Below are positions 8,960 to 12,579 of a DNA stretch of 64,000 nucleotides, one piece after another. The position numbers and the translations under genes are program-made. The notes beneath the pieces were generated by a model, which did no database searches, was not told the origin of the DNA, and saw only the letters and a list, made by a program, of their open reading frames with translations. Each line of letters starts with the position of its first letter. The first letter of the stretch is position 1. Source of the stretch: Ariolimax columbianus (lineage: Eukaryota; Mollusca; Gastropoda; Stylommatophora; Arionidae); NCBI GenBank assembly GCA_036924085.1, contig JAVGWX010000011.1:13697318-13761317 (forward strand). The letters are read 5' to 3'.

Positions 8960-9037
8960 ACGTTTGTAAATCTCCGGAAATCAAACGAAGGAAACAGGAA
9001 AACGAGCTTAGACACCCGATGTTTGGCTATCAGGAAC
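8960..9037 (+). mobile_element. LINE-X copy 1, left part
   Basis: The plus strand codes for RRKQENELRHPMFGYQE. The same coding stretch occurs at 24,690-24,740 and, on the minus strand, at about 34,140-34,190. The element continues at 12,566-12,996, interrupted by the family R insertion. Confidence 0.7.
9024..9037 (+). repeat. Target-site duplication, left copy
   Basis: TGGCTATCAGGAAC, repeated perfectly at 12,566-12,579. It brackets the 3.5 kb family R insertion. On the LINE-X reading frame it lies within GYQE. Confidence 0.9.
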
Positions 9038-9420
9038 TTCTTCTTCTTCTTCATCGTACGCTGTTTACAGCGATATTTACGTTGCACTGATTTAATTTGT
9101 TAGCCAGTGGCTCAGTGCATCCGATTTCAACAGGCGTTTCTGTAGGGTTGCCCTCCTTAGCCTTTGGCTGTCCCCAGCCTGACTGCAAGGCAGCAGTTGT
9201 TTTTGGTCCGAGTTGTCTCTCTTGGGAAGTTGTCTTGCAGGACTATCGAGTCTTCCCTACTCGTGTCTATAGCGTTTGGCAATGATATGATGGACTATGT
9301 ACTAGTTTGTACTATCCCGGAAGAGATGCAGTCCAGTGTGACTTTTTCCCAGGATCGTCACGTCCTGCCAGAAACGTAGCATATGCATATGAGTGAGGTA
9401 TCTTTTTGCTCGCTTTATTT
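9038..9420 (-). mobile_element. Family R body, shared core and (GAA)n tail
   Basis: The last 380 bp of family R, the part kept in all three copies. In element orientation: GATACCTCACTCATATGCAT, CATCTCTTCCGGGATAGTAC, CAGCCAAAGGCTAAGGAGGG, then GTTGAAATCGGATGCACTGA and CAGTGCAACGTAAATATCGC. It ends GCGTACGATGAAGAAG. The middle section matches SINE-A (CACTGGGCC...CAGTGCAACG) and the upstream GGCTAAGGAG stretch matches SINE-B. Confidence 0.85.
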
Positions 9421-9659
9421 TCTCGGCTCATCTGCTGTGATGGTACGCCTAGCATTCCCCGCCACCCGGGAGCTTGTCACCATAGGACAGGAGGTGCAAT
9501 GTCCGCTGGACTGCATCTCTTCTGCGTCCATTGGAATGACTGATAGCAGACATATGCAAAGAGCGAGGAAGGAGTGCATTTTACCAGGTGCATTCCTGCG
9601 GCTCGATCGGGCCGGGACACAAGCCCCAGCCATGTCGTAGCCTCCCATCGCAGCGGTGC

Positions 9660-9770
9660 TGAGATTTTGGGCGGGATTCTGGCTTAGAGGCGTTCGGCCG
9701 TAATCCCTCAGATGTTAGCTTATCAGCCAAGCACGTGGACCAAATGTCAGCGACCTGTGATTCCTCTCGA
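9660..9770 (-). pseudogene. 28S rRNA 3'-domain fragment, distal copy
   Basis: In element orientation it reads CGAGAGGAATCACAGG, ACATTTGGTCCACGTGCTTG, GCTGATAAGC, then GGGATTACGGCCGAACGCCT and CTAAGCCAGAATCCCGCC. This is the well-known end of domain VI of large-subunit rRNA, including the stretch after the sarcin-ricin loop region. It lacks part of the gene before GAGAGG and carries small deletions. Confidence 0.85.
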
Positions 9771-9849
9771 AATAGTGCATTTGACCAGGTGACAAGCCTA
9801 GTCTTGCACGGAGATGTTGTCCGCCTAGGGAGCGGACATATCTCAAGGT

Positions 9850-10330
9850 CAAGGTTTAAGTCTCAGCAGTTCGATGTGAGGTAGCTGATCTACTGCTTAG
9901 GGCACCCGACCGAGAACTAAGTCTTCTACAAATGATGTCATTCCTCATCGCCGTATGGGGTGAATATCGAGCAGCTTCCCGCCCGCTTTAATCAGCGGAC
10001 GGCAGAGACCTCATTCTGCGGCTTGAGCGTGGCCCCCAGGACCCCACCATGTCGAAGCCTCCCTTTGCATTCGTGCTGGGCTGCTTTTGGGCGGGATTTT
10101 TGGCTTAGAGGCGTTCGGCCGCAATCCCTCACCTCGCACCGTTGGCTTATCCGCCTAGTACGTGAACCAAATGTCTGCGGCTCCTCTCGGGCTTAGCAGG
10201 ATTACCATAGCAAAGCCCTGTCATTAGTAGGGTAAAACTGACCTGTCTTCAGAGGGTCTATTTCCAGCACCCGTTCAATATTAGCCAGACCGTATCAATA
10301 GAGGGCTTTTAGTTTGTCAATGGCCAAGTT
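9850..10330 (-). pseudogene. 28S rRNA 3'-domain fragment, proximal copy
   Basis: In element orientation: AATATTGAACGGGTGCTGG, TAGACCCTCTGAAGACAGGT, CAGTTTTACCCTACTAATGA, GCTATGGTAATCCTGCT, CCGAACGCCTCTAAGCC. Further on comes AGAAGACTTAGTTCTCGGTC followed by AGCAGTAGATCAGCTACCTC, which matches the very 3' end of 28S. Several indels, including loss of part of the GAAGCTACCATCTG stretch, mark it as non-functional. Confidence 0.85.
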
Positions 10331-10474
10331 TCTGGAACCTGCGATTTCTGCAGGGTGAAGACCAGATTACCGTAGCAGGCGCTCTTTCATTTTGGGGTTT
10401 GGAGACTGAACTGTCTTCCGTGGGTCTAATACCAGCACATGTTCACTATTAAACCCTACGAAGGTTCTCTCTTT

Positions 10475-10560
10475 TTGACAGTCATTCTACAGTATTGGCG
10501 TGTTAGGTTATTTAAGCCTCAGGCTCCACTCCTGATAGTGCTCTTCCGTCAATTCCTTTA
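10475..10560 (-). pseudogene. Second 18S rRNA scrap inside family R
   Basis: In element orientation: TAAAGGAATTGACGGAAG, CAGGAGTGGAGCCTGAGGCT, then TAACACGCCAATACTG. It repeats 18S sequence already present at about 10,660-10,757, with more substitutions. Both copies lack the same roughly 19-nt stretch after CAACACG, so they share a deleted ancestor. Confidence 0.8.
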
Positions 10561-10689
10561 TCAGAGCACTGGATGCAGACGAACCGAGCCACAGGGGGCA
10601 TAGCCCCAGATTTCTGAGGGTCTAAATCCAGCACCAGTTCCATATTTGACCCCAGAAAAGTGATCTCGGCATGTCAATCATTTCAGTGT

Positions 10690-10716
10690 TGGCCGTGTTG
10701 AGTCAAATTAAGCCGC

Positions 10717-10765
<49 letters not shown>

Positions 10766-11933
10766 TTTGCAACCATACGTCCCCCGGAACCCAAACACTT
10801 TGGTTTCCCGGAAGCTGCCCGCAGAGTCATCGAAGCAACTCCTGCGGATCGCTAGTCGGCATCGTTTATGGTCAGAACTACGACGGTATCTGATCGTCTT
10901 CGCGCCTCTGACTTTCGTTCTTGATTAATGAAAACATTCTTGACAAATGCTTTCGCAGTAGCTCGTCTTGCGGCGATCCAAGAATTTCACCTCTAACGCC
11001 GCAATACGAATGCCCCCGTTTGTCCCTGTTAATCATTACCTCCAGTTCCGAAAACAAACAAAATAGAACCGAGGTCCTATTCCTATATTCCATGCACCAT
11101 TATTCAGGCAGCCGAGGCCTGCTTTGAACACTCTAATTTTTTTCAAAGTAAACGCGCCGGCCACCCAGGACGCTCAGCTAAGAGCACCCGTGGGAGAAAG
11201 CCGGCAGACGGTAGGGCAGGAGACAACGGGCAGTGAACCGGCGAGAGCCGGACCGCCCGCCTGCGCCTGAGATCCAACTACGAGCTTTTTAACTGCAACA
11301 ACTTTAATATACGCTATTGGAGCTGGAATTACCGCGGCTGCTGGCACCAGACTTGCCCTCCAATAAATCCTCGTTAAAGGGTTTAAAGTGTACTCATTCC
11401 AATTACGGGGCCTCGAAAGAGTCCCGTATTGTTATTTTTCGTCACTAGCTCCCCGTGCCGGGAGTGGGTAAGTTGCGCGCCTGCTGCCTTCCTTGGATGT
11501 GGTAGCCGTTTCTCATGCTCCCTCTCCGGAATCGAACCCTGATTCCCCGTTACCCGTTACAAACATGGTAGGCATGTCACGTACCATCGACATTTGATAG
11601 GGCAGACATTTGAAAGATGCGTCGCCGGCACATGAGGCCATGCGATCAGCAAAAAGTTATTCAGAGTCACCAGTGGGGACGCCGCAACCCCGCGAGGGGA
11701 AACGACGATTGGTTTTGAACTAATAAAAGCGCTCTTTCTGCGACGGTCGGAGCTTGGTAAGCATGTATTAGCTCTAGAATTGCCACAGTTATCCAAGTAG
11801 GATCGTGTCATCTAAGGAACCTCGACTGATTTAATGAGCCATTCGCGGTTTCACCGTGAGACAGTGTGAACTTAGACATGCATGGCTTAACCTTTGAGAC
11901 AAGCATATGACTACTGGCAGGATCAACCAGATA
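10690..11933 (-). rRNA. Partial 18S rRNA, 5' two thirds (about 1,240 nt)
   Basis: Minus-strand small-subunit rRNA from its first bases (ATCTGGTTGATCCTGCCAG, 5' end near 11,933) through the universal GTGCCAGCAGCCGCGGTAAT near 11,325. It runs on past TTAAAGGAATTGACGG (near 10,750) to GACTCAACACGG, where it stops. A complete animal 18S is about 1.8 kb, so the last third is missing. The piece looks well conserved, far better than the neighbouring 28S scraps, which suggests recent capture or copying. It sits inside the family R insertion and is not linked to ITS or 5.8S, so it is not a working rDNA unit. The V1-V4 sequence resembles heterobranch gastropods (recalled, not searched). Confidence 0.93.
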
Positions 11934-12565
11934 TCTGTCGGAGACGCACGTACAGCACACACCGGTCGGCGGAGGAAGGGTGTGTAAAAAGCCTCCCTGA
12001 GACGGCCGCAGGGACCGACTGACGGGACGGACGGACGGTTGTTCCACCCGTCCCTCACTCCGTCGACCTAGGACCGCCTGACAGGGGCCTCCCACACGCA
12101 CCAGACGACCGACCGACCGGGCTCGCTAGAGGAGAGATGGCAGCGCTCTGTGCAGAACGGATCCCAACGACCTCGGCGATGAATTTCACTGGGACTAGAG
12201 ACAATTTGGCCTGCCGGCCTGCCCTTCTCCGTAGGAGAACGCATGGCTTCGAGGCAACGATTCCTGCTTTCCATTTGCCGGTCACAAGCTCTTTGCGAGA
12301 GTCGGACCACCAGCGAGACGTACTGTCGAGCTCTGCTATAAGCCTTAGATAAATCACCACGGACGGACCACGTTTCCTTATACGGGCCAGACGAGCGCAC
12401 CTCGGTTGAGGAGCCGCTACAACAAACCGCACCCAATTCGCTCTACGGGGAAAGGCAGGCGAGCGTTTTCCGCAAGCCCGCGCTATCGCTCCGCCTGGCG
12501 GGCCTGAGATCGCTTTACGAACACTGGTTGAAATTGAGTCGCTGCGGCGAGACAACTACCCCAGA
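11934..12565 (-). other. 5' ETS-like sequence upstream of the 18S
   Basis: 632 bp directly before the 18S start on the minus strand, GC-rich and without similarity I can name. Its position makes it the 5' external transcribed spacer of a pre-rRNA. It starts exactly at the target-site duplication (TCTGGGGTAGTTGTCTCGCC in element orientation). If the insertion is full-length, this would be near the Pol I start site; that is inference. The long open frames here are artefacts. Confidence 0.65.
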
Positions 12566-12579
12566 TGGCTATCAGGAAC
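12566..12579 (+). repeat. Target-site duplication, right copy
   Basis: TGGCTATCAGGAAC, identical to 9,024-9,037. It is followed by ACGCCACAAGAC, which continues the LINE-X coding stretch. Confidence 0.9.

Follow-up and report, generated by a model that had tools for sequence, protein, structure and literature searches.

How does the beginning of a ribosomal RNA (rRNA) gene come to stand at the head of a dispersed retroelement? The question is raised by a block of 3.5 kb in the genome of Ariolimax columbianus (2.29 Gb assembly, 401 contigs). The stretch of DNA analysed, called the window here, is 64,000 nt long (contig JAVGWX010000011.1, 13,697,318-13,761,317). The block occupies 9038-12565 on its minus strand, in the order 5' external transcribed spacer (5'ETS), 18S nt 1-1241, sub-repeats, two degenerate 28S 3' ends, core and (GAA)n. 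That it is real, beyond chance, is confirmed. Judged by its sequence, it is a member, lacking an open reading frame (ORF), of a family of long interspersed nuclear elements (LINEs) that carries the same ETS-18S leader. This leader probably came from LINE copies residing in the ribosomal DNA (rDNA), which would have been read from the pre-rRNA start and retroposed, and the ORF-less form would ride on the enzyme of its relatives.

The initial annotation of the window had described ETS, 1.24 kb of 18S, extra 18S and 28S pieces and a (GAA)n tail, and all are confirmed, the rRNA parts by Rfam and by alignment to the genome's own rDNA. All parts lie on the minus strand. The leader begins with 632 nt of 5'ETS from the inferred transcription start (11934-12565), matching an rDNA unit (L051) from position 870 to the 18S start, and continues with 18S nt 1-1241 (10693-11933), cut at ...CTCAACACGG. 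The Rfam match to SSU_rRNA_eukarya covers 10785-11930 on the minus strand (926 bits, model 4-1116), and the rDNA alignment extends to 10693, with element nt 1-1873 corresponding to L051:870-2743 at 97.8%. The sub-repeat region that follows (10416-10692), recognised by its repeats and an 18S match, is common to the LINE up to 10416 and contains a second 18S piece at 10512-10560. The 18S/28S sub-repeats occupy 10416-10756, including short pieces at 10612-10646 and 10416-10450 that we take to be 28S-like. Beyond them lie two degenerate 28S 3' ends: one of domain VI at 9838-10219 (Rfam LSU_rRNA_eukarya, 60 bits, model 3005-3399) and a second at 9593-9769, which is 76% identical to 10012-10179. Element nt 3036-3491, in the non-rRNA core (9065-9592), are 83% identical to the same part of the LINE 5' untranslated region (5'UTR). 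The 3' terminus CAGCGTACGATGAAG(GAA)n at 9038-9064 is 92-96% identical to four other places in the window, each of which ends a LINE fragment at its 3' side. The core also holds a perfect 17-nt inverted repeat (9320-9336 and 9506-9522, 169 nt apart).

According to the window's ORF list, no ORF of at least 200 aa lies in the block. It is not a short interspersed nuclear element (SINE): it is 3.5 kb long, and a search of 4,227 Rfam families at E<=1 returned SSU and LSU rRNA and a sub-threshold SmY match, nothing else. We took the SmY match (19.9 bits against a threshold of 39) as chance. Scans of viral contigs with two element patterns gave no match.

The perfect 14-bp target-site duplication (TSD) reported earlier is present as well: TGGCTATCAGGAAC stands at 9024-9037 on the element's 3' side and at 12566-12579 on its 5' side, repeated at 14/14 positions. 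The reading frame of the surrounding LINE (LINE-X) had been said to resume after the block. We joined the two flanks as an empty site and followed the frame into the right-hand LINE-like coding stretch; it meets a stop about six codons past the join, and the claim stands only further downstream, failing near the junction.

The LINE family behind the block

A genome-wide search for copies, proposed in the initial annotation, revealed a repeated family. Scoring of 40 loci out of 8,270 first-look candidates gave 15 near-full-length copies at 93-100%, with the window's own (L001) counted. Eleven of these 15 (L001-L006, L009-L012, L015) have their own duplications of 12-17 bp directly at the element ends, with one mismatch in L003, which supports the earlier proposal that the block was retroposed as one RNA by a LINE reverse transcriptase (RT). 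In two others an addition at the 5' end lies inside the duplication: in L007 it is 190 nt of 18S, within GATCTGGAC (9 bp), and in L008 it is 255 nt in a stretch that is 28S by Rfam (126 bits), within GGAAGACATATA (12 bp). L013 lies in a tandem-repeat target and its duplication is imperfect; L014 is 5'-truncated and was left out of the duplication tally. Copies with a kept 5' end have a common terminus (A)TCTGGGGTAGTTGTCTCGC, with small variants (L006). With foreign flanks and duplications in 11 of the 15, and no rDNA flanks or unit order, these copies are not rRNA pseudogenes or orphan rDNA.

Patterns were counted across the genome with up to three mismatches allowed, and reversed-pattern controls gave 0. 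The 40-mer spanning the junction of 18S and body occurs at 5,953 sites and the 5'-terminal 42-mer, with terminus (A)TCTGGGGTAGTTG, at 4,043 sites, while the 35-mer of rDNA promoter plus start is found at only 121. Of the promoter-plus-start matches listed, 99/100 are on short contigs, mostly at the ~12.2-kb spacing of rDNA arrays, and ~3,900 of the 5' ends have no recognisable rDNA promoter. Assembly error behind the junction is very unlikely, because the same junction recurs at thousands of sites with different flanks where these were read. A one-off recent fusion, considered in view of the young 18S beside old 28S parts, is refuted by the 5,953 junctions. A body marker of the ORF-less form has 1,461 sites. 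On C1, among the matches listed, 24/100 exact junctions pair with an exact 5' end (in a comparison with 70 of the 100 listed 5' ends), 20 of the 24 at 1,830-1,880 bp upstream, and 9/31 ORF-less body markers pair with a listed exact 5' end. One LINE copy (L088, C13:24608600-24611600) extends 14 nt upstream beyond the usual start and retains a piece of the rDNA promoter.

The block had been regarded as an rRNA retroelement in its own right, a view that did not survive comparison with longer relatives. Loci L016-L030 have the first ~2,150 nt in common with the block and diverge beyond, except for L019 and L020, which are of the block's body type. When taken at 9.9 kb, the L016 locus (L052) is a whole LINE with the same ETS-18S leader, sub-repeats, 28S part, core, coding part and a short GAA tail, flanked by an 11-bp duplication ATATTCTCATA. 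The coding part comprises endonuclease (EN), partly deleted RT and RNase H; PF14529, PF03372 and PF00075 score above the Pfam cut-off and RVT_1 below it (E 3e-4), and all EN, RT and RNase H domains are present in many relatives of the LINE ORF. By its domains this is a LINE with an APE-type endonuclease and RNase H, and it has the LINE hallmarks of TSDs, a 3' tail and frequent 5' truncation. The organism-named ORF relatives, among the best 120 of 199, are all gastropod: Arion vulgaris (59% identity), Littorina saxatilis, Elysia, Batillaria and Bradybaena. Of 62 scored loci, 14 have a stop-free frame of 1,304 aa or longer, and at C1:47444363 the exact junction lies 1,551 bp upstream of an open frame of 1,156 aa. 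One copy with an open 1,304-aa frame (L090, on C22) is surrounded by sequence much like the LINE-X stretch beside the window's block.

The block in the window consists of LINE leader and 5'UTR joined directly to the terminal ~27 nt of the LINE. It thus resembles SIDEs, internally deleted LINEs in which both LINE ends are kept and the ORF is absent. Past nt 2,150, block and LINE are only 76-83% identical, and in the leader there are 0 diagnostic columns between the ORF-less form and the LINE (16 versus 13 copies, L019 left out). Since the bodies are this far apart and the leader lacks any diagnostic column, two old bodies have a young leader in common.

Origin of the leader

The majority leader of 30 copies differs from the rDNA unit L051 in 22 of 1,874 columns, all in the ETS and 0 in 18S; among the 22, one column represents the first base, which was trimmed, and several fall in a single shifted stretch. 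Individual copies are 0.16-1.53% off their group majority in 18S. At eight ETS sites, 21/30 copies read CAATCATT, five vary by one or two letters, and L014 is cut short. Only three of the 30 depart from the common pattern, L028, L029 and L030, with CATGTACA, CATGTGCT and TGTGTGCA, and the last of these haplotypes is identical to L051. Six promoter-bearing rDNA units share the first two alleles of the commonest haplotype. A haplotype unlike that of L051, CGCCGCAG, is found in six rDNA units (C86:11806-62048, C236:60614), and the C86 units with the other haplotype are ~12.55 kb apart, compared with ~12.28 kb for their neighbours.

The array contig C67 contains one rDNA unit, with a promoter region (L074) 99.9% identical to L051, in which the 18S enters a LINE body at the same nucleotide as the dispersed junction (L053, L073). 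This LINE has a frame without stops over at least 1,050 codons. Its body is 99.2% identical to L028, 99.0% to L030 and 96.8% to L029, and 88.7-95.1% to the other ten LINE-form (B) copies, two of which were compared over part of their length only. The three B copies nearest to the C67 body are exactly the three with a departing ETS, and the chance of this coincidence is 1/286 (3 of 13). L030, L028 and the C67 resident group together with a tree support of 0.998. Promoter spacing is irregular on the rDNA contigs C67, C190, C50 and C86, with an apparent extra 3.1-7.4 kb, which suggests further insertions in rDNA units.

We propose that a LINE lodges in rDNA, reaching 18S nt 1241 by its own nick (a putative target TTT|GACTCAACACGG), and that the resident is transcribed from the pre-rRNA start, presumably by RNA polymerase I (Pol I), giving an RNA that would begin at ATCTGGGG. 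The ETS-18S-LINE co-transcript would then be retroposed elsewhere in the genome, and repeated launches from rDNA would keep the leader renewed. The ORF-less form is predicted to move in trans with the enzyme of full-length relatives. The shared 5' terminus would accordingly be the Pol I start of the family, resident copies like that on C67 would be the source of the dispersed ones, and Pol I RNA would have to be translated. The main reason for reading the direction as outward from rDNA is that L028 and L030 carry two ETS haplotypes on nearly one body, as would be expected for a resident in units of different haplotype.

Other captures of 18S were sought with a 32-mer of 18S, which had no genome match, and with its 18-mer core at the 18S 3' end. 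The 18-mer has 43 exact matches, 27 on chromosomes and 16 on short contigs, mostly rDNA arrays. All 27 chromosomal loci were read in part, and LINE sequence lies downstream in 25; of the other two, L036 shows no LINE and L043 only a second 18S piece. In ten captures where the 5' end was sought, six begin at the same start (L033, L035, L036, L042, L043, L045), L037 begins ~8 nt inside it, and in the remaining three it was not found in the stretch examined. Five captures (L035, L039, L040, L091, L096) leave 18S at one base (L051:3299, ...GATCGCTTGGAG|) and enter the LINE at five positions. The LINE bodies of L039 and L040 are 76-80% alike to both main bodies and represent a third body lineage. 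Insertion sites of the family yield a target motif, T at -2 and purine at +1, and this motif is over-represented 11-15 nt ahead of the rDNA side at nine junctions (3.37 versus 0.49, P=0.0004), with no enrichment in eight control windows (P 0.12-0.93). Such an enrichment is the trace that LINE insertion into rDNA should leave, rather than a jump onto rRNA. A lone rDNA-like unit at C12:62836558-62842500 (L063, L075) has promoter, ETS and ~365 nt of 18S at 89%; its 18S runs into the 3' part of 28S (1,117 bits), with a LINE 3' end downstream, and it may be an rDNA unit that fused long ago and is akin to the 28S-derived parts.

Several observations weigh against an origin from rDNA residents. The C67 unit is 6,404 bp longer than the standard unit and a LINE body should add ~5,510, leaving ~0.9 kb in excess. 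A simple arrangement on C67, in which a standard unit holds the LINE at 18S nt 1241 between 12-bp duplications, agrees with neither the pattern search nor the unit length. A search for LINE tail, duplication and downstream 18S at two sites yielded no true case; there was one match per site, both ordinary 18S variants. The C67 unit, L051 and L052 are not all alike in 15 ETS/18S columns. The C67 unit matches L051 in 10 of these (612 and 615 included), L052 in 4 and neither of the two in 1, and because it sides partly with L052, exchange between LINE and rDNA is possible. The co-segregation of ETS and body speaks for one lineage only, since leader and body are linked, and none of the three rDNA units read has the commonest ETS haplotype. 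Among the copies with a stop-free frame of 1,304 aa or more, upstream sequence was read for one, L090; it is truncated at LINE nt 2169 and lacks the leader. The motif comes from a sample of 16 insertion sites (that of L015 left out) and nine junctions with their rDNA side inside the reference, and with the null confined to the ascertained stretch P rises to 0.025 for seven sites. The junction of L046-L049 does not fit it, and the 28S junction of L008 fits weakly (fraction 0.157).

A rival explanation is template jumping, in which the LINE enzyme, while copying LINE RNA, switched to nuclear pre-rRNA and continued as far as the 5' end of that molecule, and one such chimera became a master, now transcribed from a promoter in the captured ETS. 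L007 and L008, where rRNA pieces are joined to complete elements within one duplication, could equally be template jumps, and in mammals joined LINE-1 and 28S pieces (n=18) are ascribed, in an excerpt of the paper, to RNA ligation or template switching (PMC13174262). The failure to find a resident 3' junction at the two sites searched agrees with jumping, and the absence of the commonest haplotype from the sampled units fits LINE-borne masters. However, jumping fails to predict an open-frame LINE in a promoter-bearing rDNA unit at the same base, the kinship of the C67 body with just those copies that have rDNA-like ETS alleles, the enrichment of the nick motif, or the five captures that leave 18S at a single base. 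We consider it unlikely, though well within the range to be taken seriously.

The lack of a long ORF, the mostly rRNA-derived 3.5 kb and the many copies would also suit an rRNA-derived SINE-like retroelement in its own right, with an origin unrelated to the LINE 5' end. That idea is highly improbable and largely refuted by L052, as leader, sub-repeats, 28S part and core are also in this LINE, the terminus is in LINE fragments, and no leader column is diagnostic between the forms. Even less room is left for an assembly artefact, or for degenerate rDNA fragments spread by segmental duplication. L046-L049 do have one junction in common on C13, and two C17 loci score alike, but 13/15 near-full-length copies have their own duplications at different sites, with thousands of sites in all, and these independent insertions refute it; its probability is practically nil.

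Beyond the origin of the leader from rDNA residents, a wider picture can be drawn, which we consider evenly poised between right and wrong. In it, rDNA would be a launch pad: LINEs lodged in 18S genes would draw on the strongest promoter of the cell, and every dispersed daughter would carry the first 1.9 kb of the launch unit with its ETS alleles as a heritable barcode. Concerted evolution would renew the leader, the dispersed retrotransposon and the array would evolve as one system, and the ORF-less form would be its parasite.

Other family members and reading frames in the window

The window contains two further copies of the block on the plus strand. One at 35686-37128, 5'-truncated and without ETS and 18S, is 84% identical over 1,420 aligned columns and flanked by GGAAAGGTCTCT at 35674-35685 and 37129-37140; the other, at 44109-44489, consists of core and tail only (90% over 384 aligned columns) and is flanked by GAATAGATAAAT at 44097-44108 and 44490-44501. 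The RNase H end of a same-family LINE, with an ORF, lies at 5992-6858 on the plus strand (89% to L052 over 700 nt), with the shared 3' terminus at 6858-6884. A broken same-family copy, in three matching pieces at 81-84% to L052, lies at 59852-62494 on the minus strand. Apart from these, a 258-aa ORF at 18924-19700 resembles by eye the 3' part of another reverse-transcriptase gene, and at 39525-40475 on the minus strand a minisatellite reads as a 316-aa repeat ORF (NLASLISRLV...).

Comparison with known rDNA and LINE systems

If the proposed origin is true, it links site-specific rDNA elements, which are hidden in rRNA genes, with dispersed LINEs, which need their own promoter. The ETS alleles of a copy would name the rDNA unit that launched it, and germ-line rDNA expression could be read from genome sequence. 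How a Pol I RNA without a cap could be translated is a further question that the proposal touches. In animals of this kind, rDNA copy counts and surveys based on 18S may be misled by the ETS-18S sequence that stands at thousands of places outside rDNA. A dispersed LINE family with an ETS-18S leader was not among the literature matches listed, which covered open-access articles and are weak evidence of absence.

The family is a LINE by membership and likely R-element-like in its mode of action. It does not belong to the rDNA-specific group, because its insertions are not at one conserved rDNA site: thousands lie outside promoter-bearing units, although five of the chimeras have a single 18S position in common. 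The rRNA-derived SINEs, SINE28 among them, are short and 28S-headed, and their rRNA is not known to be the leader of an autonomous LINE; as here, rRNA sequence is amplified by a LINE.

The following comparisons draw on excerpts of the cited articles. The rDNA-specific R elements, such as R2, R1 and the hydra R8 in the 18S gene (cited in PMC5035012), are LINEs in rRNA genes and co-transcribed with them; a LINE body in an 18S gene is seen here too, on C67, at its 5' join. Drosophila R2 frees its RNA by a 5' ribozyme (PMC3414825). While R elements return to one rDNA site, here thousands of copies outside rDNA keep the pre-rRNA start and most of 18S. The SIDEs of Drosophila (internally deleted R2 and R2/R1) are also ORF-less, with LINE 5' and 3' ends, and presumably moved in trans; however, their site is the 28S gene and the R2 ribozyme forms their beginning, whereas the family of the block is dispersed and starts with ETS-18S (PMC3414825).

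Fusions of rRNA to the 5' end of a LINE in one insertion, mostly in sense, are also described for the mammalian LINE-1/28S chimeras, but these are 18 events with a median of 269 nt of 28S (PMC13174262), in contrast to a single, fixed leader of 1.9 kb whose 5' terminus recurs at 4,043 sites. In RAP1GDS1-L1, a case of LINE 5' transduction or host promoter co-option, an upstream host transcript was likewise carried along from a host promoter; there it was a gene promoter and two insertions of the chimera (PMC13174262), here the pre-rRNA start and thousands. The R2 of ray-finned fish, with a 28S-derived 3'UTR, has likewise built rRNA into the untranslated region of the LINE itself, at the 3' end and tied to a target-site shift (PMC5035012), whereas the slug family carries it at the 5' end.

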